64,000 nucleotides of DNA from Pseudoalteromonas sp. XMcav2-N (GTDB lineage: Bacteria > Pseudomonadota > Gammaproteobacteria > Enterobacterales > Alteromonadaceae): contig NZ_JAMXSF010000009.1 in assembly GCF_024124545.1 (NCBI RefSeq), positions 62,001 through 126,000 on the forward strand, given 5' to 3'. The position numbers and the translations under genes are program-made. Under the pieces are notes generated by a model. The model was not told the DNA's origin. It did not search any database and saw only the letters and a list, made by a program, of their open reading frames with translations. Shown here one piece after another: positions 7,817 to 64,000 of the stretch. Numbering within the stretch: position 1 is the first letter of the stretch; every line of letters starts with the position of its first letter.

Positions 7817-8201
<385 letters not shown>

Positions 8202-26335: not shown

Positions 26336-26824
26336 ATGCGTTTGAGTCGTAAGGCCTGGAATAATGTGGTGATCTTTTCCATGTTGATCATGATCTTTTT
26401 TCTCAATGGGATTCACCAGAAAATGAACCCTTCGGATGAGGAAATGGGTAGCATGCCGCTTTTTGAGCAGCAGAGCTTTGTGCTGGCATTGGGCTTTCCG
26501 GGTTACAAGATTGAACGTATTGGCACCTCCTGGCGGCTCAGCGCTGATGCCGAGGCCACCTGGCAGGCACAACCGGCCACACTGGATGCGTTAGTTACCC
26601 GGTGGCAGGAAAGTGAGCTGGCATTGACTGACAGTCCGGGGTTGCCAGCCAGTGCAGCACTGAGTGTGGCTCAGTTCTGGCTGGCTGGCAGCGAATTACC
26701 TGTCAGCTATCAGCTGTACCGCCAGCAGCAGCGCTATTATCTTTTTGCCAGACAATCACAACGTTGGTTCAGCCTGAGCAAAACCCAGGCACAACAATTA
26801 TTCGCCCCTATAGAGTTGAAGTAA
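26336..26824 (+). CDS. Single-span membrane protein of unknown function upstream of mutM
   Basis: 162 residues: one N-terminal helix (about 8-26, [19 protein letters not shown]) and a roughly 130-residue periplasmic domain, Trp/Gln-rich. GGAG at 26327-26330 gives a good start. The stop shares a base with the mutM ATG, so the two are cotranslated. Similar small membrane proteins precede mutM in related genera, but no function is known to me. Confidence 0.72.
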
Positions 26825-27633
26825 TGCCAGAATTACCTGAAGTAGAAGTGAGCCGTTTAGGCATTGAACCCCATATTCTGAATCAAACTGTCACTAAAGT
26901 TGTGGTGCATCAGCGCCAGCTGCGCTGGCCAGTCCCAGAGCAAGTGAGCCTGCTAGAAGGACAACACATACAGGGTGTCCATCGGCGGGCCAAATACTTG
27001 CTGCTTGAGAGTGCGCTGGGTACGGCTATTTTGCATTTAGGCATGTCGGGCAATTTGCGGGTGGTTGATAAGGACAGCCCATTAAAGAAACACGATCATG
27101 TCGAATTTCACTTTGCAAATGGGCTGGCCTTACGCCTTAATGATCCGCGTCGCTTTGGTGCATGTTTGTGGCAATCACCGGATGAGGCGCATGCGGTGTT
27201 TGCAAAGCTGGGCCCTGAACCACTGACAGAGGCGTTTACGGCCGAGCACTTGTATTCGGCCAGCCGGGGCAAGAAAGTCGCGATTAAACAGTTTATTATG
27301 GACAATCATGTGGTGGTGGGCGTCGGTAATATTTATGCCAATGAGTCTTTATTTAAAGCGGGGATCCACCCAAAGCGCGAAGCAGGTAAAGTGTCTTTGC
27401 AGCGCTATCAACGCCTGACACCCATTATCAAAGACACACTGGCAAGCGCCATAAAACAAGGTGGGACGACCCTTAAGGACTTTGCGCAAAGCGACGGTAA
27501 GCCAGGCTACTTTGCGCAGGAGTTGCTGGTCTATGGGCGTAAAGGCGAACCCTGTGTCAGCTGTGAGACTGAACTGAAGGAGATCCGCCTGGGTCAGCGC
27601 AGCACCGTCTATTGCTCCCAGTGTCAGCGCTAA
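26824..27633 (+). CDS. mutM: Formamidopyrimidine-DNA glycosylase MutM (Fpg)
   Basis: Base-excision repair enzyme that removes 8-oxoguanine and opened purines and cuts the abasic site. 269 residues. The catalytic N-terminus PELPEVE (Pro after the initiator Met is the nucleophile, Glu next) is exact. The central helix-two-turn-helix contains the [10 protein letters not shown] signature. A C-terminal zinc finger, CVSC...CSQC, is intact. It overlaps the upstream membrane protein gene by one base and its tail overlaps the opposite-strand M20 gene by four bases. Confidence 0.97.
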
Positions 27634-28760
27634 CTGTCACTGCTTAACTCAGCTTCCGGTTCGGCCTGATAACACAGGCTTGCCAGGATCTGAGTGACCT
27701 GTTCAATACGCAGCGCAAAACTGGATTTGATCGCGCGTTCATGAATGGTGTGATCCCCATCACCATAGGGTCCAAAGCCATCCAAAGTCGGCGTCCCCGT
27801 AGCGGCTGCAGTATTGGCATCGGACACCCCGCCACGATGTTCCACGGGCAGATCATAACCCAGAATCTCATTGATCTCATTCAATAAGGCTGATTGCTTA
27901 TCCGTTGGTGCCATCACACCCCGTTGCAATCCCCCTTCTAACTTAACCGACACTCCTGTGACCTCAATGGCCAGGCAGATGTTTTCTATGCCCTCGAGTA
28001 AGCGCTGTTGTTCAGAGGCTTTGGTAAAGCGTGCTTCTACTACCATAGTGGCCGATGGAGAAATGGTGTTGGCACCAATGCCTCCCAGGATTTTACCCAC
28101 ATTGACGGTGCTGCCACGTTTGAGGTCGGTCAGGGCCGACATTTCCATCAGCATGTTTGCCAGTGCAAAGTTCGCATCAATACCATCCCGGTAATGGTTA
28201 CCGGCATGTGCCGCCTTACCCGTAATGGTAATGGTATAAGTGGCAATGCCTTTGCGAGCCACCACCAGTTCGTGGTTTTTTCCTGCTGCTTCGAACACCA
28301 GGCAGGCATCATACTGTTTCGCAATTTTACTGGTCAGCGCCTTGCTGTCGTCACTGCCAATTTCCTCATCGCTGACCAGCAGCCAGTCAATGTTGTTGAG
28401 CGTGCCATAGGTACGCTTCAATTGCCGTAATGCATTCAGCGCTACCCAGTTACCGCCTTTCATATCGCACACACCCGGACCATACACACAGTCATCGTCC
28501 TGGCTGAATTCGACGAATGTATCGGGTGGATACACCGTATCCAGATGACCCAGCAAGAGGATCTTTTTACCCGTGCTTCTTGGCGCACGCAATAATAAAT
28601 GATCACCAATATGTTCCCGCTGATAACGGGTGAGCGTATACCCCAGCGGTGCAGCCAGCTCAATCATTTGCTCGCCGTGTGCATCCACACCGGCTTTATG
28701 CTTACTGTAAGAATTACAACGAATTAAAGACGCGAGTTCATTAAAGTCCAGACTATCCAT
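27630..28760 (-). CDS. M20-family metallopeptidase (carboxypeptidase G2-like)
   Basis: 376 residues, no signal peptide, so probably cytoplasmic. Zinc ligands and catalytic residues of the M20 fold are visible: [10 protein letters not shown] (His, Asp), [10 protein letters not shown] (bridging Asp), SDEEIGS (general base Glu and ligand Glu), and [14 protein letters not shown] near the C-terminus (His). The dimerisation lid lies at about 180-295. The family includes enzymes that cut C-terminal glutamate or dipeptides; the exact substrate is open. It is divergent from the ATP-grasp/M14 genes (about 190 bases to the next start), which suggests a shared pathway. Confidence 0.88.
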
Positions 28761-28948
28761 AACAGGTCCCTGCGGTAATTTTGGCCCATCGTGGCGATTT
28801 TCGATGACAGTCAGGTGACGGAATTATGAACAGTTTTTGGATCCCGACAGGTACAGAAAAACGATCAAAAATCTGTCACACAGTGCCCTGTAAAATAGCG
28901 TTTCTGACCAAATTTTATGCACCTGTTCAAGGACCAAGGAGATACTTT

Positions 28949-29896
28949 ATGACACGCTCTGTCGCGGCGCCGCACGTTGGCATCTGGATGTACGAAAATG
29001 GTGGAGGGCGCGATATTGAGCAGCGCCTGGTTCACGCGTTGGCTGAACGCGGGATCCAAACCAGTACCGGGCTCAATCTGCGTGACGCCCGGGCGAAAGA
29101 TGGCCAGATCATCTGCAATGGCGTAGTGATGGAGCAGCTGGATGCGTTTTTGAGCTACAACGCAGGCCAGCAAACTCAGTTCCAGGTGTATCTCTATCAG
29201 GCGTTGAGCCAGGCGATCCCGACACTGAATAACTACGAGGCGTTTGCGCTGGCGGAAGACAAATTTCGCACCTCTCACTTGCTCAATAGCCAGAGTATCT
29301 GCACGGCGGATTATCGTTTGTGCCACAAGAACGATATGGATGGCCTGAAACAGGCATTGAGAGATTTTGGCGGCAAGCTGATCTACAAGCCCACCGATGG
29401 CTGGGGTGGCGTCGGCATTGTCAAAATTGACAGTGAGCAGGCACTGGACATGCTGCTGCCGTTTTTGAGCCGTACCGACTTACGTTACTTCTATGTTGAG
29501 CGTTTTATTGACTACGACAACACCGACTACCGCATTGATGTGGTGGATGGCAAGTTTGTCGGTTGCTATGGCCGAAAAGCACCGAAGGATGACTGGAAAA
29601 CCAATATCACCAGTGGCGGCTCTGTGTTTGTTCGAGAGCCTGACGAGGAGGTGGTTGAGCTGGCGATCCGGGCTGCTAATACCTTAGGGCTGGAGATTGC
29701 CGGTGTTGATCTAATCTACGATCGCGAGCGCGAAGAATACGTGGTGCTGGAAGTAAACACCATTCCTGCGTTTGCGACACCTGAACAAGAAGCATTGGGG
29801 CTCAATTTTAACCAGGCCAAGATAGATGCCATGGTGGAGCTGATCGAGCGCACAGCGACCCAAAAAAGCGCCCTGCATACGCACAAAGTGGCCTGA
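28949..29896 (+). CDS. RimK-like ATP-grasp ligase
   Basis: 315 residues of the ATP-grasp fold, which joins a carboxylate to an amine through an acyl-phosphate. The nucleotide and Mg sites are complete: KLIYKPTDGWGGVGIVKI, FYVERFIDYDNTDYRIDVV, KTNITSGGS, EIAGVDLIYD, and VLEVNTIPAF (the E-x-N metal motif). The N-terminal domain (GIWMYENGGGRDIEQRLVHAL) is pre-ATP-grasp-like. AAGGAGAT before 28949 fixes the start; the longer frame from 28826 has no ribosome site. The family adds amino acids such as glutamate to proteins or peptides (RimK) or makes small peptides; the acceptor is unknown. First gene of the ATP-grasp/ATP-grasp-HhH/M14 cluster. Confidence 0.88.
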   Translation: MTRSVAAPHVGIWMYENGGGRDIEQRLVHALAERGIQTSTGLNLRDARAKDGQIICNGVVMEQLDAFLSYNAGQQTQFQVYLYQALSQAIPTLNNYEAFALAEDKFRTSHLLNSQSICTADYRLCHKNDMDGLKQALRDFGGKLIYKPTDGWGGVGIVKIDSEQALDMLLPFLSRTDLRYFYVERFIDYDNTDYRIDVVDGKFVGCYGRKAPKDDWKTNITSGGSVFVREPDEEVVELAIRAANTLGLEIAGVDLIYDREREEYVVLEVNTIPAFATPEQEALGLNFNQAKIDAMVELIERTATQKSALHTHKVA

Positions 29897-29954
29897 TGGC
29901 CATGCGACCGACTTATTTTACTAACCCATTAATTTTGCCAAGGTGGCCCGAGCA

Positions 29955-31349
29955 ATGACTGCAAAACCCAAACTCCCAAAGATTGGACTTCTGTATCTGG
30001 ATTATGTCTTACGCTTTTTCGACAAATCCAACTTTAAAGGTTGGCCAGATAAAATCGAAACTGTGGTATATCACTGGGGCAACGACAAAGCGCGTTTTAT
30101 TGCCGAAGTGAAACAAAAGAAAATCGATGTGCTGATTGGTAATATTCCTGCTACAGCGTATGAGACGTTCCGTGAAATTGCCCGTGCGTTGCCACATGTA
30201 CGTTTTTTACCCTCGCTGGATAGCCAGTTTTCAAACAAGTCAAAAGAAAACGTGACCCACTTCTGTCGTAAGTACAAGTTGCCGGCGCCACATACCGAAA
30301 TCTTTTACGTCCCTGAAAAAGCAAAGCGTTATCTCAGTCAGGCCACCTACCCAAAGATCATCAAGCGCTCGTATGGTCCCTCAAATTACGGCGGCTACTT
30401 TGTACATAAAGTGGATAATTACGACGAAGCAATGGCACTCCTGACGGAGAAAAAATACTACCCGGCTTATGTACAAGACTTTGTGCCTATGGAAGCAGAC
30501 ATTCGTGTCATGCTGGTAGGCCATAAGCCGGTATGCGCTTTTTGGCGTCGTCCACCGGAAGGTGAGTGGCTGACCAATACCAGCCAGGGTGGCAGCATGG
30601 ATTATCAGGCAGTACCAAAATCAGTGCTTAAGCTGGCCACTGCTGCTTCGAAAGCGGCGAATGCGGAATACTGGGCGTGCGATATTGCGCTGGGCAAAGA
30701 TGGCAAGCTACGCATTTTGGAGTGTGCCACGGCATTTGCTGCGTTCCCATATATTCGAGATTGGATAGGCCAGTATCTGATGTGGCTGCTCTCTGATGGC
30801 CATTTCCGTAAGCCGAGCATCCCGCTGTACAACTGGGAGGAGCTGGGCAAAATCGATTCACGTTTGCTGCGTACTATGCGTCATATTGGGTTTTCCAGCT
30901 ATACGCCAAGTCAGGACTGTGGCGAGACCTTCCACGGTATGGATGAACAACAGTTTCCAATTCTCGATACCCAATATCAGCGTGTCGAAGAGTGGCCCAG
31001 TGAGATCTGGAATCTGCAAGACAACTTCGTGCTGCAAGCCAAATCGGCACAAGCCAAAGCTCTGCAACCCATTCCGGGCAGCGATGAGCAGGCGGGTATG
31101 GCGCTCAACAGCTATCCGGCCCCGATGTTTGATGATGCCCAGATCCGGGAGATCCTGGCGCAGGTGAAAGGGATCGGCGACAAGATGATCGACGAGATCA
31201 TGGCCACCTTTGGTGCACATGGTGTGGTTGAAGCCCTGAATACCGAGCCACAGCAGTTATGTGTCGTAAAAAACCTGAAGGATAAGAAACTGGAGAAGAT
31301 TGTTGCTCACTGGCAACAGGTGATGCCCGCCGGGCTGACCACACATTAG
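29955..31349 (+). CDS. ATP-grasp protein with C-terminal helix-hairpin-helix domain
   Basis: 464 residues. The ATP-grasp domain spans about 1-280: YPKIIKRSYGPSNYGGYFV, YVQDFVPMEADIRVMLVG, CAFWRRPPEGEWLTNTSQGG, EYWACDIALG. The expected E-x-N metal motif reads ILECATAF, so the Asn is replaced by Ala. Residues about 400-460 carry a helix-hairpin-helix: VKGIGDKMIDEIMATFG, a fold that usually binds DNA or RNA backbone. Joining a ligase fold to an HhH is unusual. ATG 29955 is preferred over GTG 29943 since AAGGTGG lies between. Either it is a ligase with altered chemistry or a non-catalytic partner of the ligase next door. Confidence 0.85.
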   Translation: MTAKPKLPKIGLLYLDYVLRFFDKSNFKGWPDKIETVVYHWGNDKARFIAEVKQKKIDVLIGNIPATAYETFREIARALPHVRFLPSLDSQFSNKSKENVTHFCRKYKLPAPHTEIFYVPEKAKRYLSQATYPKIIKRSYGPSNYGGYFVHKVDNYDEAMALLTEKKYYPAYVQDFVPMEADIRVMLVGHKPVCAFWRRPPEGEWLTNTSQGGSMDYQAVPKSVLKLATAASKAANAEYWACDIALGKDGKLRILECATAFAAFPYIRDWIGQYLMWLLSDGHFRKPSIPLYNWEELGKIDSRLLRTMRHIGFSSYTPSQDCGETFHGMDEQQFPILDTQYQRVEEWPSEIWNLQDNFVLQAKSAQAKALQPIPGSDEQAGMALNSYPAPMFDDAQIREILAQVKGIGDKMIDEIMATFGAHGVVEALNTEPQQLCVVKNLKDKKLEKIVAHWQQVMPAGLTTH

Positions 31350-31364
31350 TGCTTTCTGGCTGTA

Positions 31365-31387
31365 CCGGATCAGCTAGTCTGATCCGG
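31365..31387 (+). other. Hairpin between the ATP-grasp-HhH and M14 genes
   Basis: CCGGATCAG (31365-31373) pairs perfectly with CTGATCCGG (31379-31387); a weak T-rich stretch (CTTTTTAT) comes only 13 bases later. It may attenuate or process the transcript inside the cluster. Confidence 0.55.
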
Positions 31388-31424
31388 GTTATGGCATGTC
31401 TTTTTATGCAACTGAGCAACCGCT

Positions 31425-34016
31425 ATGAAAATCCAATATGCGTCCTATCAGGACACCATAGAGTTCCTGCAAAGCGCCATGAGCGCACATCCCCATTTGA
31501 TCCGTTTACAAAGCATAGGTGAGACCTGGGAAGGTCGACCGATCATGCTGGTGACCATTTCCCTGGATGTGACCTATGCCGATGATAAACCGGCCTTACT
31601 GTATACTGGGTCCATTCATGCGCGGGAATGGATTGGCAACGAACTAGCGGTGAAGTTTGTTCAGTATGTGATTGATAACTATCGTTTCAATCCTAAGCTA
31701 CAACATGCATTGACCCGTAACACCCTGTACATGGTGCCTTGTCTGAACCCCGATGGCTTTGAGTATTCCCGCAATCATTTTTCGTTCTGGCGCAAAAATC
31801 GGCGTAACAACGGCGATGGTACCTTTGGGGTGGACTTGAACCGTAACTTTGATGCCAAATTTATGCGCAATCAGAATACCGGCTCGAATACCTATGGCGG
31901 TCCTCATGCCTTTTCTGAGCCGGAAACCTGTGCCATTCGCGATTTTGTGGAAAGTCATGAGAATATCCGCATTGCACTGGATTATCACTCTCAGGGTAAC
32001 GTGTTTTTCCCCGCCCATAAGTTTAATCATGAGGTCGAGATCGAAGGCACGGATCTGAATGTGCTGTGCGCTAACATGAACCACGAGATCAAAAAGGTCA
32101 CGGGACGTCAGTATGGGATCCACCGTGGCAAGCCGCCGGCTCAGTTGATCCACGGCAGTGGCCGCGAGTATTATTATCGCAAAGGGATCATCGCCACTGT
32201 GGTGGAAGTGGGTACGCGAAACATTCCGGATTATATGAAAAACATGTCCGAGAGTGTCGCCGAGAATATTCCCGCCGTACAATATGCACTGAGTGAAGCG
32301 ATTAACTATTCGCCGCTGGCGCCTAAGCGGGTTGAAGGGTTCACCATCAAATCCGTGGCCCATGACAGTGTCGAGCTGGAGTGGCAGTATGAAGATCGGG
32401 ATGACATCTACTTTGAAGTCTATCGCAGTCAGCACAACAAAAACCCTTGCGGCGAAGAAACTCTGGTGGCGATCACCAAAACACTGGGCTTTATCGATCG
32501 CCAGCTGCAAAGCGGACACAGCTATTTTTATAACATTCGCGCCGTCGATAAAGTCACTAAAATAAAATCCCCGTTCAGCCCGGAATTGCGCCTGAAAACC
32601 CGCCTGGGCCGGACCGAAAGCGCCCGTACCTTGTTCCCTTCTCGCGAAACTGTGGGTTATTTATCGCAAAACAATCAGGCCAAGAACAAGGAGCATTTTG
32701 GTTATAACTCCATGTTTATCGGCGTCGATAAAAAGCGTGGGATCAGCATGGGCGTGGTGCAGTTTGATCTCAGCAGTATTGTGGAAGGCTCGCAGATCTT
32801 AAGCGCCCAGTTCTTTATCTATCCAATGAACCGGGTGGCCGCCAAAATTGAAAAATATGGCGAGTGGTCGGTGGCGATTCTCGATGCCGATCAGGTTGAG
32901 GACATCTATGACTACAGCAGTATTGCCGATGCTAAGCCATTGCATACGCTGGGACAAACCATAGAATCCGACAAGCTCACCCAGGGGATCTGGATGAAAT
33001 GGCTGTTTAACGGGGTTGAGCGCAGCCTGCTGGCCAAGTTGCTCAAGCAGAAGCGCTTACTGCTGCGCTTACAGGGACCCAAGAAATTGCCACTGGGCAA
33101 AGACTCTCAGGTGATGCAATTCGATATTGGCTACGGCTCGTTTGGCAGTGGTCTGCACTATCGGCCCAACCTGGAGCTGGTCTATCAGCTACCCGAGCAA
33201 CAGCTCGCCCTGAGCCCGCTGTCCTGCAATACCATTTACAAAGACAAAGTAGTGGCCGACAAGCTGGCATCGGGATTCGATTCCGAAGGCGATATTGTTT
33301 ACGGACAAATGGCGTTTGATCTGAATGTGGATTTGCCCGTTGATCGTACCGTATTTACCAATGCCTGCCTTACTGTGCGCTGTTGTAATTCCATTGCATC
33401 TGCACGGGATGTGCGTTTTACCATCGAGCTGGTGGAGCTCAGAGATGTGGACTACCAGCATGTTAAACAGCGCCAGAAGATTGAATATATCGGCTATGAG
33501 GTCAGTAATGAGCAACTCAGAGAGCGTGCTGAACATCACTTTATTTTCGACAGCTACAGCTTGCAGGAGCTGGAACGTCTGCATCAGGCACAGACGCCAT
33601 TTTACTTTATTATTCGTGCCACCGCGGAGTCGCAGGCTACCGATGCACTGGTAAACTGGACCAACTGTCAGGACCAGCAGCCGGCACAGCTGAAGATCGA
33701 TTATATCGAGCGCCGTAAACATCCGGTGGCTGCGCCCCATAACCTGCAAACTCAGGTCGAAAATGGCGTGGTTAAGCTGACCTGGGACAATGAAGAAGAC
33801 GAGGATCTGGTCGGCTTCTTTGTGGTGCGTAACCGTTTTCATCCGCCGCGCTCGCCGTTTGATGGGGTGAAGTTGTACGGTGGTCGGGACAATTATACGC
33901 TGGATAACTTTGGTACGCCGGATATTGCGAAGTATTATGCGGTATTTAGCTATGATGATGTGCCCAATTACTCGCAGCCAGTGACGATTTACTACGCGGG
34001 CAAAACTGAGGGCTGA
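31425..34016 (+). CDS. M14 zinc carboxypeptidase with accessory beta domains, no signal peptide
   Basis: 863 residues. The peptidase domain (1-290) has the full M14 set: SIHAREW (zinc His and Glu), LNPDGFEYS, DLNRNFDAKF, NTYGGPHAFSEPE, ALDYHSQGN (zinc His) and TVVEVGTR (catalytic Glu). Then come an FnIII-like domain (about 300-395), two beta-sandwich segments resembling DNRLRE/CBM96 modules (about 400-585 and 590-770) and a C-terminal FnIII-like domain (about 775-863). There is no signal peptide, odd because most bacterial M14A enzymes are secreted; this one is probably cytoplasmic. Its setting beside ATP-grasp ligases recalls tagging/untagging pairs such as tubulin ligases and cytosolic carboxypeptidases (inference). 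Start has weak ribosome-site support (GAGCAAC). Confidence 0.88.
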   Translation: MKIQYASYQDTIEFLQSAMSAHPHLIRLQSIGETWEGRPIMLVTISLDVTYADDKPALLYTGSIHAREWIGNELAVKFVQYVIDNYRFNPKLQHALTRNTLYMVPCLNPDGFEYSRNHFSFWRKNRRNNGDGTFGVDLNRNFDAKFMRNQNTGSNTYGGPHAFSEPETCAIRDFVESHENIRIALDYHSQGNVFFPAHKFNHEVEIEGTDLNVLCANMNHEIKKVTGRQYGIHRGKPPAQLIHGSGREYYYRKGIIATVVEVGTRNIPDYMKNMSESVAENIPAVQYALSEAINYSPLAPKRVEGFTIKSVAHDSVELEWQYEDRDDIYFEVYRSQHNKNPCGEETLVAITKTLGFIDRQLQSGHSYFYNIRAVDKVTKIKSPFSPELRLKTRLGRTESARTLFPSRETVGYLSQNNQAKNKEHFGYNSMFIGVDKKRGISMGVVQFDLSSIVEGSQILSAQFFIYPMNRVAAKIEKYGEWSVAILDADQVEDIYDYSSIADAKPLHTLGQTIESDKLTQGIWMKWLFNGVERSLLAKLLKQKRLLLRLQGPKKLPLGKDSQVMQFDIGYGSFGSGLHYRPNLELVYQLPEQQLALSPLSCNTIYKDKVVADKLASGFDSEGDIVYGQMAFDLNVDLPVDRTVFTNACLTVRCCNSIASARDVRFTIELVELRDVDYQHVKQRQKIEYIGYEVSNEQLRERAEHHFIFDSYSLQELERLHQAQTPFYFIIRATAESQATDALVNWTNCQDQQPAQLKIDYIERRKHPVAAPHNLQTQVENGVVKLTWDNEEDEDLVGFFVVRNRFHPPRSPFDGVKLYGGRDNYTLDNFGTPDIAKYYAVFSYDDVPNYSQPVTIYYAGKTEG

Positions 34017-34098
34017 GTTTTTTGACCATAAACTAACAGGGCCAGCCTGAGTGAACTAAGCTTTAACCATTCTGAACGCGGTGGTTAAGGCGACAGGT

Positions 34099-36573
34099 AT
34101 GCAGTTTGAATCTGGCATTCTGGTCCTGGTGTTTTTGATCCTGGCCCTGTTTATCGGGGCGCTGACTCGCCATGCCCTGAAAAATACCCAAATCCCTTAT
34201 ACTGTAGCGCTGCTGGTCATAGGGATCTGTATCGGGCTGGCGCAGCGGGGTGAGGCATTCACTGGTGATATGCAGATGGTCGGCGATACCCTGACGCTGG
34301 TGGCTGACATCGACCCGCATCTGTTCCTCTTTCTATTTTTACCTACTCTGATCTTCGAAAGCGCGTTTGCCATGGAAGTGCATTTATTCCGGCGCATGTT
34401 TACGCAAATTGCCATTCTGGCGGTGCCAGGTCTGATGCTGGCCATTTGGCTGACTGCTGAGTTATTGCATGTGAGCGTGCCTGAACACTGGCAGTGGAGC
34501 TGGGCCATGTGCCTGATGTTTGGTGCCCTGATCAGTGCCACCGATCCGGTGGCTGTGGTGGCTTTACTGAAAGAAGTGAGCTCGCGCAAACGTCTAGAAA
34601 CCCTGATTGAGGGCGAGTCTTTGCTTAATGATGGGACCGCCATTGTGTTTTTCAGCTTGTTTTATGTCTGGGTACTGGCCAGCAGTGGTGGTGAAGGCGC
34701 GGCGATGGCCTCGCCCTGGCAAGCGGTAGGCCAGTTTGCCGGGGTCGTCTTGGTGGGGCTGGCGATAGGGCTGGTGTTGGGCGGATTATGTATTATGTGG
34801 ATCGATCGGGTGTTTAACGATCCCATGATAGAGATCACTCTGACCATAGCAGCGGCGTACTCGGCCTTTTTTATTTCCGAGTCGTTCCATGTATCCGGAG
34901 TGGTGGCAGTGGTGACGCTGGCGCTGGTACTGGCCAGTGTCGGGCGGACCCGGATAAGCCCGGAGGTTGCCGGATTTTTACATCATTTCTGGGAAATGAT
35001 GGCGCATATTGCCAACACCTGTATTTTCCTCCTGGTGGGGATCCTGGTGGCCATTCGGGTGCCCCTGGACGACCTTCAGGCATGGCAGACGCTGGGTATC
35101 TTGTACGCGGGGATCATGCTGATCCGGGGGACTTCCATCACAGTGTTCACACCTTTGTTAAGCCGTATAGGCGTGGGCATTACCTTTGAAAAAGCCAGTG
35201 TATTATGCTGGGGGGGTCTGCGTGGCGCAGTCTCATTAGCGCTGGCCCTGACCGTGGCTGCCAGCGAGGCGATCCCAAAGGAGGTAAGCGATCGCATGTT
35301 GTTTTTATGTGCCGGGATTGTGGTACTGACGATTTTAATTAACGGCGGCACTATGGGCATGCTGCTGAAGTTTCTGCGTCTCGATAGCCTGCCTCCGGCT
35401 AAACAGGCTACGGTGGACAAAGCCAATCAGCAGGTCGCCAATACCCTGCAAACCATGTTGCCGACCATGATGAACAGCCCGTTTTTACTGGGCGCTGACT
35501 GGCAACAGGTGAAAGCACAGGTCAAGCTGGGCGCGATGGCACAGTCAGACGCCGCAACACCAATAGATAAGGACGATCTCAATACCGCTTTTTTACGTCG
35601 TCTGCTGGAGACGGAACGAAAACACTACTGGACACAGTTTGAGCAAGGGACCCTGGGTAAGCGAGCAACCAACTTGCTGGTTGAAGCTGTGGAGCAGGCA
35701 CTGGATGGCGAGCCCTGCATTGGGCCGCGCGATACTCTGTTTGCGACCTGGCAAGTACCGGGTTGGCTTGAACGACTGCGTGGCAGTGCCTGGTTAGAGC
35801 GGGCGTTATTGAGATTGTACTTTGAGCGTCTGGTGGTGGGGTACGATGTGGCACGGGGTTTTATTCAGGCGCAGGAAGCACTGGAAAGTCACATTGATAC
35901 CTTATCGCCAAACACACAAATAGCGGATCAGGTGCGTAAGCAGGTTGAGGGTAATATTGCTCAGACCATAGCGCGCATCAATGATCTTCAGGAGACGTTT
36001 CCGGATATCGTTCAGGCACTGCAATCCCAGGCGGCTACCCGATTGCTGCTTAACCGGGAGCGTGCGGTGATTAATGAGCAACTAAAGCTGGCAGTGCTCG
36101 ATAAACCCGAAGCCAGTCGTTTGCTGGAAAGTGTCGAAAAGCGTATGGCGGCACTGCAAAAAGTGTCCATTTTTCGCCAGACCGAGGCGGCGCAGCTGGA
36201 TCAGCAGATCCCCTGGCTGCATGGCGTAACACACACCACCCGGGAGCAAATAAGCAGCTGCCAGGAGCGGGGCATTTATGACGCCGGGCAGGCTTTGATC
36301 AAGCGGGGTAAGCCGCTGAATAAACTGGGGGTCATTTATCGAGGGAGCGTACGAGAAGTCGGCGCTGGCACTGACGGAAGTAGTCAGGCTGTGGTTCGGG
36401 GGCCGGGTGAGGCCCTGGGGGTTACGGCCTTGCTGACAGGCACTTCGGCGCTGGATTATCTGGCAGAAACGCCCTGTGAAGTGATGTGGATCCCAGTTGA
36501 TAAGCTGAAGTTACTGATGCAGGACGACCCCGCGCTGATGCGTATACTTTGCCAACAGCTGGCGCAGGGCTAG
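34099..36573 (+). CDS. CPA1-family sodium/proton antiporter with cyclic-nucleotide-like C-terminal domain
   Basis: About 824 residues. The first 400 hold some twelve helices with CPA1 motifs GALISATDPVAVVALLKE and LIEGESLLNDGTAIVFF (ion-binding Asp). The long soluble tail (about 400-824) is helical, then ends in a Crp-like cNMP-binding fold (about 700-820: GQALIKRGKPLNKLGVIYRGSVREV, then RGPGEALGVTALLTG). This build resembles the plant SOS1 class of antiporters. ATG 34099 is preferred to GTG 34081 by the AAGG 8 bases ahead. About 80 bases separate it from the M14 gene, with no terminator seen, so cotranscription is possible. Confidence 0.9.
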   Translation: MQFESGILVLVFLILALFIGALTRHALKNTQIPYTVALLVIGICIGLAQRGEAFTGDMQMVGDTLTLVADIDPHLFLFLFLPTLIFESAFAMEVHLFRRMFTQIAILAVPGLMLAIWLTAELLHVSVPEHWQWSWAMCLMFGALISATDPVAVVALLKEVSSRKRLETLIEGESLLNDGTAIVFFSLFYVWVLASSGGEGAAMASPWQAVGQFAGVVLVGLAIGLVLGGLCIMWIDRVFNDPMIEITLTIAAAYSAFFISESFHVSGVVAVVTLALVLASVGRTRISPEVAGFLHHFWEMMAHIANTCIFLLVGILVAIRVPLDDLQAWQTLGILYAGIMLIRGTSITVFTPLLSRIGVGITFEKASVLCWGGLRGAVSLALALTVAASEAIPKEVSDRMLFLCAGIVVLTILINGGTMGMLLKFLRLDSLPPAKQATVDKANQQVANTLQTMLPTMMNSPFLLGADWQQVKAQVKLGAMAQSDAATPIDKDDLNTAFLRRLLETERKHYWTQFEQGTLGKRATNLLVEAVEQALDGEPCIGPRDTLFATWQVPGWLERLRGSAWLERALLRLYFERLVVGYDVARGFIQAQEALESHIDTLSPNTQIADQVRKQVEGNIAQTIARINDLQETFPDIVQALQSQAATRLLLNRERAVINEQLKLAVLDKPEASRLLESVEKRMAALQKVSIFRQTEAAQLDQQIPWLHGVTHTTREQISSCQERGIYDAGQALIKRGKPLNKLGVIYRGSVREVGAGTDGSSQAVVRGPGEALGVTALLTGTSALDYLAETPCEVMWIPVDKLKLLMQDDPALMRILCQQLAQG

Positions 36574-61252: not shown

Positions 61253-64000
61253 TTACTTAGGTTTAGAAACATCCAGAACAAAGACATCAATTAGCCCTTT
61301 TAGTTCTGCGGGCAATTGTTCTTCAATACTGCTTTTTAGTTCCTGAGCACTACTTATCTCATGCCTTTTTCGCCCTGCAACCTCTTCATCTACACCAAAC
61401 CAAATAACAAGGTAAATACCTTGATGTTCAGCATCAGGGTGGATTGAGTAACGTTCGAATAGCTGAGCAGAGGCAGCCGAATATAACTCACTATGCCATT
61501 GTCCCTTTGCCTCTATAACGAGTAACCGCCTTTTACCGTCAATCATCTTAGTTGCAGTTATATCAATCCTATTTTGATTCTTGGTCTGATGTTCGGGCGT
61601 AACTGAGATACTTTGAGGGTGGAGTACCAAGTTCAGTCGTTCGGCAATGATCTCGACAGAATTAACTTCATTTAAATGTATATCACACCCATTTTTATCT
61701 TTCGTATAAAAACGACTTGCCGTATTGAACTCGCCTCCGTCAATATCCTTTTGATAGTTTATCAACTCTTGAATAACGAGTTGGCGTAATCCTTCAACCG
61801 TAACTACAGCGTTATTGTTCAATAAATCTGCTATTTTTTGAGGGGTAGGGGGGGCGAAATCTCTTAGAGCTTTCTTACGCAACTGCTCTGCCTGTATGCT
61901 TGTTAACTCTCTATAAATATCAACATAACGTTTATCTTTTAAAAGTCGACTAAGAACAGAGATTGCTGCATCGTGACTGTCGTTACCAATTGTCCAAATG
62001 AGCTCTGTCAGAAACCTATATGCCGTTTCTCCAACAGGGCTTCCAGTTCCCCAACTGCTAGGAAGGTACACCTTTGGCCATTGTTTAAAGTAGGCTTCAA
62101 GAATAGCTTCTACCTTCTCAGATGTTAGCTCAGGCCAATATGAATGGTGGCTCCGATTCATTCGACCTGAACGCTCATTAAACAAAAGTACTGAGTTTTT
62201 ATCAGACCTTAACCAATTCAAATACGGTTTTGCCACTTCTATATCCAGGAAGTAGAATGCTCGAACAAACCAGAATTTACGCCTTTGTTCGAGTTTTTCA
62301 TCAGCTGTTGCATCGGGCCACTTAGATAAAAATTCAGAACAACGAACAAGAATGATTTCATTCAGTTCTTCTCGTTTTCCGTAATGAGCCGCGAGTTCAA
62401 AAAGAGAGTCCAGTGCATAGGGTTCAATCGCATTGAAACGACCAAGCCACTCAATTGATAACTTTGCTCGTAAAGGACTGAATATGTTGTCGTACTTTAA
62501 TAAGTCGACCTCAGGGTGGGCACACTTAGATTGCGCCAATTGAGGCTCAACGTATTGACGTAGAAATTGCTCGGCAGATTCAATATCAGGAAAAATTAAG
62601 CGATCAACTTCAGTTCTAAGAGCATCGCGTTCACCTTCATCAACAGCAGAATGTCCCATACTTAAGTTTGTTCTCAGTGCAATTAGCAACGAAGACTTGA
62701 CGCCTTCCAAGTTTCCACAATCACGCATGATTTCAAGGCAAGCCGCGAAAAGGATGGTTTCAACGAATAAGCCCTTAGAAGCGCATTGCAATTCAGCTAG
62801 CTTTTGCAGATTAGGAACATCTGATTCAATAAAGTCGAGGCAGTTTCTCAGCGCATTTCGAACAAGCGTTTCATCACCAAACTCAGGTTCTATACGCTCT
62901 GGTTGCTCCAGTACGAGTCCAGCAAAACGAACCAAGCAATGCCAATGTCGTCCACCTTCAATCAGAGCACGGTTTTCCTGAACAAATTCGATATTTTCCA
63001 CATGAATTTGTCTAGTTTTCTTGTCATGGCGTTTTATTAGTCGGCGATGTTTGAAATTCCACTCTCGATCTTCCTTTTTGTCCCAAATAGCCGTTTGCCT
63101 ATTTTGAAAAGCCCAGCGCCTCATGAATTCAGTTTTTTTAGAGGCTTGAACACGCATATGTCGACGCAAATAATCAGGCCCTAAGTCTTCCTGTGCACGG
63201 TGATAATTATGTCGCGGCATAAAACTCACCCACAATTCGAGGTTATCGCTCATAAACGCCAAATCAACAATAAACTTATGATCATCAAGATTTAGACGAA
63301 GACCGGCATGTGAGCAATGCCCACCAAACTTGTGTACTTTAGTTTGGAAAATCTGATCTCTATCAGTTAGCTTACCGAAAACATGAGCAATAATTTCTTG
63401 ACGTAGGGCATTATCTTCCCGAAGTAATTTAACCGAGTTGATATCTTGAGTATTTACTTGTTCTGGAAAATTAAGATTTTCAATCCATTGCCAGACACGC
63501 AACGGCTCAAAAGGTGGTTTAGCTAACTCAAAATAGCGATCCAGCATTGAACCAATGATTTTGCTCACCCCAGTTCGACAGTCACATTCATACGCTTTTT
63601 TTCCACAGGTGCAGGCTAAGCCTTTACTCAATGAATCTAACAGCCATTCGATGACCTCCAAAGTTAAACAAGATATTAAACGCTTAACAAAATAACGCCC
63701 TCCTATTTCTCTCTCAAAACGCTCTTTATGACTAGGATATAGGTTGATGCAACTTAGAAAGAACACTTCAAGCTCATCCGGACTAAATGTGTCTGGACCA
63801 AGTGTTTTGATTACATCTGCTGCTATATTCAGAGATGAATGACTAGCTTCAGCAATCAATTCTTTCAAATCTAAACGGAAGTCGTAATCATCAATCATTA
63901 ACAGGCAGCTCTTAGCTAATACTCGAACTTGTTTAGTTTCACTTGATGCTAATAATAACTGACGTAACTCTTTGACTAACCACTTTGCGGCCTTAGAGCC
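61253..64000 (-). CDS. Large helical protein with C-terminal PD-(D/E)XK nuclease-like domain (5' partial)
   Basis: At least 915 residues are visible. The frame stays open from the in-frame ATG at 63898 to the window edge (it reads WLVKELRQLLLASSETKQ upstream), so the true start is outside. Most of the protein is helical and repeat-like. A Cys cluster near the start (LACTCGKKAYECDC, about 93-107 counted from 63898) may bind zinc. The C-terminal 150 residues hold RIDITATK and RLLVIEAKGQW, the D...ExK pattern of restriction-type nucleases. The gene is more AT-rich than its neighbours, which suggests transfer. This build is typical of anti-phage defence effectors; an NTPase part may lie upstream. 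No named family was recognised. Confidence 0.78.
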   Translation of the reverse strand, partial: GSKAAKWLVKELRQLLLASSETKQVRVLAKSCLLMIDDYDFRLDLKELIAEASHSSLNIAADVIKTLGPDTFSPDELEVFFLSCINLYPSHKERFEREIGGRYFVKRLISCLTLEVIEWLLDSLSKGLACTCGKKAYECDCRTGVSKIIGSMLDRYFELAKPPFEPLRVWQWIENLNFPEQVNTQDINSVKLLREDNALRQEIIAHVFGKLTDRDQIFQTKVHKFGGHCSHAGLRLNLDDHKFIVDLAFMSDNLELWVSFMPRHNYHRAQEDLGPDYLRRHMRVQASKKTEFMRRWAFQNRQTAIWDKKEDREWNFKHRRLIKRHDKKTRQIHVENIEFVQENRALIEGGRHWHCLVRFAGLVLEQPERIEPEFGDETLVRNALRNCLDFIESDVPNLQKLAELQCASKGLFVETILFAACLEIMRDCGNLEGVKSSLLIALRTNLSMGHSAVDEGERDALRTEVDRLIFPDIESAEQFLRQYVEPQLAQSKCAHPEVDLLKYDNIFSPLRAKLSIEWLGRFNAIEPYALDSLFELAAHYGKREELNEIILVRCSEFLSKWPDATADEKLEQRRKFWFVRAFYFLDIEVAKPYLNWLRSDKNSVLLFNERSGRMNRSHHSYWPELTSEKVEAILEAYFKQWPKVYLPSSWGTGSPVGETAYRFLTELIWTIGNDSHDAAISVLSRLLKDKRYVDIYRELTSIQAEQLRKKALRDFAPPTPQKIADLLNNNAVVTVEGLRQLVIQELINYQKDIDGGEFNTASRFYTKDKNGCDIHLNEVNSVEIIAERLNLVLHPQSISVTPEHQTKNQNRIDITATKMIDGKRRLLVIEAKGQWHSELYSAASAQLFERYSIHPDAEHQGIYLVIWFGVDEEVAGRKRHEISSAQELKSSIEEQLPAELKGLIDVFVLDVSKPK

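Follow-up and report, generated by a model that had tools for sequence, protein, structure and literature searches.

Two ATP-grasp proteins and two metallopeptidases encoded together in marine bacteria: a candidate system for reversible addition of an acidic residue

What could two enzymes of ligase fold and two peptidases accomplish side by side in the same bacterial cell? The question is raised by a stretch of 64,000 nucleotides from Pseudoalteromonas sp. XMcav2-N (hereafter the window, with positions counted from its first letter). The source is close to P. rubra, and four intact, leaderless open reading frames (ORFs) lie at 27630-34016, encoding an M20 metallopeptidase, two ATP-grasp proteins that we call AG1 and AG2, and an M14 carboxypeptidase. 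An initial annotation, made from the letters alone, had proposed that the cluster writes and erases an amino-acid or peptide tag, or builds and trims a small peptide, inside the cell. We find that the cluster is real and old, and we propose that its four products may work in the cytoplasm as one system, attaching an acidic residue, with glutamate the most likely, reversibly to the carboxyl terminus of a single acceptor. To this reading we give a probability of about 0.5.

The M20 gene (27630-28760, minus strand, 376 amino acids (aa)), whose product is carboxypeptidase G2-like and a predicted remover of a C-terminal amino acid, is oriented away from the other three. These lie on the plus strand in the order AG1 (28949-29896, 315 aa), a RimK/MptN/ArgX-like ATP-grasp ligase; AG2 (29955-31349, 464 aa), a second RimK/LysX-like ATP-grasp protein; and M14 (31425-34016). 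AG1 most likely starts at the ATG at 28949, behind an AAGGAG motif, rather than at the first ATG of its ORF (28826), and the best start for AG2 appears to be the ATG at 29955 rather than the GTG at 29943. All four ORFs match Pfam domains above cut-off (Peptidase_M20 with M20_dimer, RimK twice and Peptidase_M14), in agreement with the initial annotation of two ligase-fold genes and two metallopeptidase genes at this place; among the NCBIfam models listed none of the four proteins reaches a cut-off. The proteins had also been described as lacking a signal peptide, which is borne out for M14 by its sequence: it begins directly with its catalytic domain, and Met1-Lys2 is invariant in 32 of 32 aligned sequences.

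Do the four genes belong together? A protein pattern scan of GTDB species genomes yielded 241 stretches encoding AG2 relatives, 80 of which were kept; with one plasmid record and 20 whole-genome stretches these gave 101 loci, which were mapped by tblastn. Sufficient flanks, that is at least 2.7 kb upstream and at least 0.7 kb downstream of AG2, are present in 93 loci. A single locus, usually spanning no more than about 22 kb, holds all four genes in 88 of these 93 (76 with a divergent and 12 with a co-directional M20 gene), the loci not being independent, with many close relatives and about 30 from Pseudoalteromonas. Their side-by-side arrangement is visible in the locus maps. Six of the eight loci with shorter flanks, outside the 93, likewise carry all four genes; within the stretch covered, L076 is without M20 and L107 without M20 and M14. 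Loci with the complete set occur in Gammaproteobacteria and in Campylobacterota. The initial annotation had staked its proposal on the genes being neighbours in related genomes, and so they are, also beyond Alteromonadales.

Each of the five exceptions was looked at in turn. In L106 and L108 no M14 gene is nearby (in L106 no M20 gene either), and these genomes carry M14 on another contig, where M20 was not sought. AG2 stands alone in L147 and L148 (genomes G643 and G523), followed by a gene for what we take to be DNA polymerase III alpha, and M20, AG1 and M14 are grouped elsewhere in the same two genomes. The remaining exception, L146 (G551), consists of fragments of AG2 and M14 at a contig end; no AG1 was found there. 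Besides the genomes of L106 and L108, M14 is present in 11 of 11 AG2-bearing genomes examined (in one as a contig-end piece only) and AG1 in 10 of the 11, being absent from the fragmentary one. In genome G181 M14 and M20 are fused into one protein of 1243 residues, with M14 at 15-249 and M20 at 935-1229, which hints at a common substrate, or at consecutive action, of the two peptidases. The pairwise distances are correlated among the four proteins (r 0.79-0.84, 84 sets); joint inheritance would produce this, but so would species relatedness by itself. Outside Pseudoalteromonas, neither mutM nor the antiporter gene (see below) is among the ORFs shown next to the cluster. A Pfam scan of 119 of 120 flanking proteins (32 loci, at most two proteins per side, 120-900 residues, MutM of L032 excluded) revealed no common extra partner, the largest family occurring in 4.

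One pointer to an acidic residue is the M14 enzyme, whose catalytic domain (31425-32324) matches PF00246 with 193.2 bits against a cut-off of 21.6 (E 1e-56). Conserved residues were counted with one ORF per locus, the window's included, after dropping rows shorter than 700 (M14), 280 (AG1), 310 (AG2) or 340 aa (M20). The residues H65, E68, H188 and the catalytic E261 of M14 are found in 90 of 90 rows, as are R123, N139 and R140, which we take to bind the substrate carboxylate. The metal sites of both peptidases are complete, as had been claimed from the letters, their ligands presumably corresponding to those of carboxypeptidase A (CPA) and carboxypeptidase G2 (CPG2) as read off alignments.

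The nearest named relatives of M14 are CPA and carboxypeptidase T. Arg247 (codon 32163-32165), conserved in 90 of 90 cluster rows, is paired by HMMER with the Ile in the CPA4 stretch GSSIDW, corresponding to residue 255 in CPA numbering. Among 30 M14 loci of the order used as a control, an arginine occupies this pocket position in 6 of 6 cluster proteins and in 0 of 24 others; 11 of these 24 are distant (378-486 aa) with an unsure pocket alignment and show S or T, and the 13 nearer ones show D, A, Q or E. The six cluster-type proteins among these 30 loci all come from AG2-bearing genomes. According to the accessible part of PMC9925722, residue 255 is hydrophobic in CPA, Asp in CPB and Arg in CPO, which acts on acidic C-termini. 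The arginine thus leads us to lean towards a CPO-like, acidic specificity of the cluster enzyme. Its AlphaFold model (pLDDT 80.0) fits CPA4 with Z 28.3 and rmsd 2.9 over 274 aligned residues, and CPO (5mrv) with Z 26.5 and rmsd 3.3 over 275.

About two thirds of M14, a feature absent from the initial annotation, are formed by a beta-rich C-terminal region of about 560 residues (approximately residues 300-863; 32325-34013), which appears fn3-like, then DNRLRE-like with further beta domains. The tail is conserved in the family and its strands are predicted with pLDDT values mostly of 75-95. In the window copy the fn3 and DNRLRE matches lie below cut-off, and in L139 the fn3 match lies just above it (26.2 versus 25 bits). 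A sequence-profile search of the tail against the PDB gave weak matches only, mostly to fn3 (best E 0.04); the structure searches used the whole M14 model, and their listed rows cover mainly the catalytic domain.

The addition itself is most probably catalysed by AG1. This protein matches PF08443 with 72.6 bits (cut-off 21), and D254, E268, N270, R195 and R209 are present in 95 of 95 rows, leaving the D...E-x-N metal site complete. The best NCBIfam models are MptN (NF040720; 128.3 versus a cut-off of 350 bits) and rimK_fam (TIGR00768; 126.2 versus 143.4), and the RimK S6 ligase model (NF007764) scores 67.9 against 331. Counted along the alignment, R195 and N270 of AG1 match R189 and N262 of RimK. 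In Pseudomonas aeruginosa RimK these two residues touch the last resolved glutamate (PMC10092738, in its available part).

AG2 shares the fold (PF08443, 42.9 bits against a cut-off of 21) but departs from its neighbour in two ways, so that the description of both as ATP-grasp proteins stands for the fold and has to be qualified for AG2: the Asn of the E-x-N metal motif is missing, and a helix-hairpin-helix region follows at the C-terminus. D182, R184, R198, N208, G212, G213, D243 and E256 are present in 99 of 99 rows, and in all 99 the metal motif reads E256-C257-A258 (codons 30720-30728), with Ala258 where the Asn is expected; AG2 thus retains the RimK-type arginine without the asparagine. 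Its nearest named relative is LysX, and with NF007764 (16.0 bits) and TIGR00768 (64.6 bits) the cut-offs are not reached. The AlphaFold model (pLDDT 72.7) resembles ArgX (3vpb) with Z 21.0 and rmsd 3.0 over 261 aligned residues, RimK and LysX being tied with it. Three distant Pseudomonadota copies of 322-349 residues are without the C-terminal region and consist of the core of about 320-360 residues. Since this core is strongly conserved, AG2 probably has a precise partner.

The helix-hairpin-helix region of AG2 (31152-31316) matches HHH_5 weakly in the window (17.1 versus 27 bits, E 0.008). Of 34 aligned copies, 28 match this model at E 0.01 or better, the best with E 4e-10. Three other copies of the Campylobacterota group (L141, L143 and L144) carry HHH_3 instead (82-95 bits against 27, E 3e-23 to 4e-27), so that a nucleic-acid-type module exists on AG2 in at least two forms. 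L138 (444 residues) has neither, and the copies of L150 and L151 (about 400 residues) align only to query residues 382 and 369. In one of these two (from genome G009) the module may have been cut off, because the profile match continues past stop codons to position 451. In the linker, otherwise variable and poorly predicted, residues 345-355 (30987-31019) form an invariant or nearly invariant motif, EEWPSE.WN.Q (alignment A5), which is missing from the AG2 types of L135, L136, L138 and L143. The motif is reminiscent of the acidic tail of LysW.

The M20 protein matches PF01546 and PF07687 with 76.7 and 54.5 bits, both above cut-off, and its nearest solved structure is CPG2 (1cg2, E 8e-29). The ligands of the dinuclear metal site, H72, D99, E132/E133, E157 and H337, occur in 91 of 91 rows. 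The best NCBIfam match is PRK07338 (227.3 versus 357 bits), all 25 models listed of 53 being below cut-off. A salinity transcriptome of Photobacterium damselae reports a 27-fold rise from 1% to 3% NaCl for an M20 gene, A0J47_RS07600, and a change in the opposite direction for a rimK gene (PMC10308900, available part). That A0J47_RS07600 is the cluster M20 gene could not be shown, and it is not used as evidence here.

How might the four proteins work together? AG1 would activate the acceptor carboxylate with ATP and couple the amino acid to it, as RimK, MptN and MyfB do. AG2, binding ATP in the same fold, could make the first, acceptor-specific bond with its changed metal site or hold the acceptor in place for AG1, in many lineages with the aid of its helix-hairpin-helix module. 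M14 would then trim acidic C-terminal residues one at a time, and M20 would remove or recycle the last one. The identity of the residue as glutamate, the direction of each reaction and the division of labour are what we infer; glutamate is suggested because a RimK/MptN-like ligase, an M14 enzyme with the Arg255 signature and a G2-like M20 enzyme each point weakly there. The two kinds of reaction have precedents. Two ATP-grasp ligases act in turn on the polyglutamate of methylofuran (accessible text of PMC8141765), and RimB erases the glutamates that RimK writes (accessible text of PMC11957791).

As to the acceptor, we lean slightly towards a protein or peptide over a cofactor or small peptide, giving the former about half of the weight of the proposed system. 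The long tail of M14 and the helix-hairpin-helix module hint at a protein, and the kinship with MptN and carboxypeptidase G2 hints at a small molecule. The earlier idea of tag writing and erasing, or of building and trimming a peptide in the cell, fits the features and gains a probably acidic residue, while its two branches, a protein tag and a small peptide or cofactor tail, cannot be told apart. In a more specific version, which we regard as rather doubtful, the cluster would be a bacterial counterpart of the tubulin code, with reversible C-terminal glutamylation of one protein sited on DNA or RNA (ribosome or nucleoid): the helix-hairpin-helix would steer AG2, AG1 would extend the tail, and M14 and M20 would be dedicated erasers of the tail and of its first residue.

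Several observations weigh against the proposed addition and removal of an acidic residue. The position of Lys208 in CPG2 aligns with Glu163 of M20, which gives no indication of a glutamate preference of the pocket. AG1 stays under cut-off in all 25 NCBIfam models listed of 31, and AG2, lacking the Asn of E-x-N, may not be a ligase. No acceptor gene travelling with the cluster was found among the 119 flanking proteins. In the M14 model pLDDT falls below 50 at residues 64-66, 119-126, 130-163 and 235-245, around the active site, and the pocket assignment therefore rests on the sequence alignment. Finally, other pocket positions contribute to specificity, and a paralogue with Gln255 also cleaves C-terminal Glu (PMC9925722, available part); CPO accepts polar residues too, according to the title of PMC6214572.

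Among the rival explanations, four unrelated genes that are chance neighbours can be set aside as refuted: the conservation in 88 of 93 loci, the fusion in G181, the co-occurrence in genomes where the set is split and the differing flanks outside Pseudoalteromonas leave this account virtually no probability. Far more credible, if at less than even odds, is a small-molecule role, in which the product of the ligases, recycled by the peptidases, would be an acidic cofactor tail or a short glutamyl peptide (an osmolyte, store or cofactor), comparable to methylofuran, tetrahydrosarcinapterin or folate glutamates. M20 is nearest to carboxypeptidase G2, a folate hydrolase; the best NCBIfam model of AG1, MptN, is a cofactor glutamate ligase; and the named carriers belong mostly to genera of the sea or of salt water. 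MyfA and MyfB provide a precedent with two ATP-grasp enzymes (PMC8141765, in the text available). Yet the 119 flanking proteins include no shared biosynthetic gene, the 560-residue tail of M14 and the helix-hairpin-helix of AG2 would be unusual for enzymes with small substrates, and the distribution, with 8 carriers among 148 genomes in the order and 25 among 60 in the genus, is patchier than expected for an essential cofactor. A carrier-protein pathway like that of LysW, LysX and LysK, with the ligases loading a small carrier and M20 releasing the product, appears improbable. The acceptor loops of AG1 and AG2 do align with those of ArgX and LysX, which together with RimK are nearest to the AG2 model, LysK is an M20 enzyme, and a [LysW]-lysine hydrolase model is among the listed NCBIfam matches, far below its cut-off. 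However, a search for LysW, which did not extend to unrelated carriers, gave no match in any of 8 cluster genomes, whereas the control detected it in 4 of 14 known ones, and M14 has no known role in the LysW pathway.

Maturation of a graspetide-like precursor, cyclised or extended by the ligases and trimmed by the peptidases, we consider very unlikely, even though a survey reports ATP-grasp branches that occur with peptidases and show no visible precursor (PMC8939145, available part). The AG1-AG2 and AG2-M14 gaps of at most 251 bases leave little space for a precursor, for which no model-based search was made; the M20-AG1 gaps exceed 300 bases in 9 of 76 loci. Moreover, there is no common transporter or other modifying enzyme among the 119 flanking proteins, AG2 scores 21.7 against a cut-off of 350 with GRASP_SAV_5884, and M14 and M20 are not mentioned in the accessible main text of PMC8939145. 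An anti-phage defence system or a selfish module spread by transfer would agree with the patchy presence across two phyla, but it is still less probable. The four proteins have no convincing PADLOC match (there is one Cas12a match to M20, E 0.05), PADLOC matches in the flanks are scattered, with at most 3 of 119 proteins per model, and nothing matching AG2 turned up in 50,697 phage records, which also argues against a phage origin.

The distribution was followed in whole-genome searches of draws from Pseudomonadota and Campylobacterota. Within the order, 8 of 148 genomes have a strong AG2 match (at least 60% identity). Strong matches were also obtained for 5 of 398 genomes from the phylum and for 18 of 200 from the phylum to which the Sulfurovum genome G506 belongs; in the genus 25 of 60 genomes have a match. 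Named carriers include Pseudoalteromonas, Photobacterium, Veronia, Alteromonas, Colwellia, Shewanella, Halomonas, Endozoicomonas and Sulfurovum. Three strains of P. rubra and a further Pseudoalteromonas sp. account for the four loci whose AG2 is 98-99% identical to that of the window. In Veronia pacifica (G512) the cluster occurs a second time, as L187, with interrupted frames; in L187, L055 and L081 M14 is broken into several frames (in L187 AG2 as well), as if decaying or misassembled.

Between the divergent M20 and AG1 genes the spacer (28761-28948) contains short non-coding blocks that are kept in an alignment of six Pseudoalteromonas sequences, among them one around TTATGAACA and one around TCAAAA...TGTCA; these weakly suggest a control region shared by the two genes. 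A palindrome suspected by eye in this spacer was rejected, as a repeat search of the window copy found no inverted repeat. Behind M14 follows a sodium/proton antiporter fused to a C-terminal cyclic-nucleotide-binding domain (34081-36573), a neighbour seen among the mapped loci only in L032-L035, from P. rubra and one near relative. On the other side, a 162-residue ORF without a Pfam or NCBIfam match at E 0.1 (26336-26824) precedes mutM and accompanies it in those mapped Pseudoalteromonas loci that have mutM there. Farther away lie the RNase P RNA (class A, 7819-8201), the sole Rfam match at gathering score in the window, and a minus-strand ORF of 881 residues (61253-63898) without a Pfam match at 1e-5.

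To our knowledge few reversible amino-acid ligations are known in bacteria. We recognised no description of the four-enzyme set in the open literature, most subscription journals lying outside that coverage, and the set is apparently an undescribed variant of known chemistry. The set is compact, its genes are nearly always found with one another, it occurs in two phyla, culturable strains from the sea included, and it comes with a residue-level prediction, namely acidic C-termini. Should the acceptor be a protein, the system would provide a new reversible protein tag; should it be a metabolite, marine bacteria would contain a glutamyl compound not yet described. Either way, four proteins that are now classed separately in family libraries, as generic peptidases and ligases, would be united in one role.

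How does this system compare with known ones? Among the cofactor glutamate ligases MyfA/MyfB and MptN, two ATP-grasp enzymes work in turn, as AG1 and AG2 may do, and MptN is the best named model of AG1. AG1 lies below the MptN cut-off, however, and PMC8141765, in its available main text, nowhere uses the word "peptidase". LysX and ArgX, with LysW and LysK, resemble the cluster in the acceptor loops of the ligases and in the use of an M20 hydrolase, and differ in that LysW was absent from all 8 cluster genomes searched and that M14 is present here. Carboxypeptidase O has, like the cluster M14, an Arg at position 255 and prefers acidic C-termini (PMC9925722, accessible part). It is a vertebrate enzyme with a signal peptide, whereas the cluster M14 is bacterial, leaderless and equipped with a conserved 560-residue tail.

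In the RimABK system, which polyglutamylates ribosomal protein S6, a ligase of RimK fold adds alpha-glutamates to a C-terminus from which a peptidase removes them again, and AG1 keeps two of the glutamate contacts of RimK. RimABK has one ligase and a retropepsin-like eraser, while the cluster has two ligase-fold proteins and, as erasers, M14 and M20; a retropepsin-like RimB is not encoded with the cluster ligases, the rest of the genome not having been searched for it. Of 12 cluster genomes, 7 have a separate RimK above cut-off and no such RimK was found in the remaining 5, the window's genome being one of these, so that as a rule the cluster neither replaces nor needs RimK. In tubulin glutamylation, TTLL ligases and cytosolic carboxypeptidases likewise combine an ATP-grasp writer with an acidic-specific M14 eraser in the cytosol (in part PMC6214572). 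The cluster M14 differs in being of CPA/CPT type with C-terminal beta domains, and no tubulin-like target is linked to it. By analogy, TTLL ligases and cytosolic carboxypeptidases would be the nearest counterpart of the cluster in logic, and RimK/RimB the nearest bacterial pair of writer and eraser.

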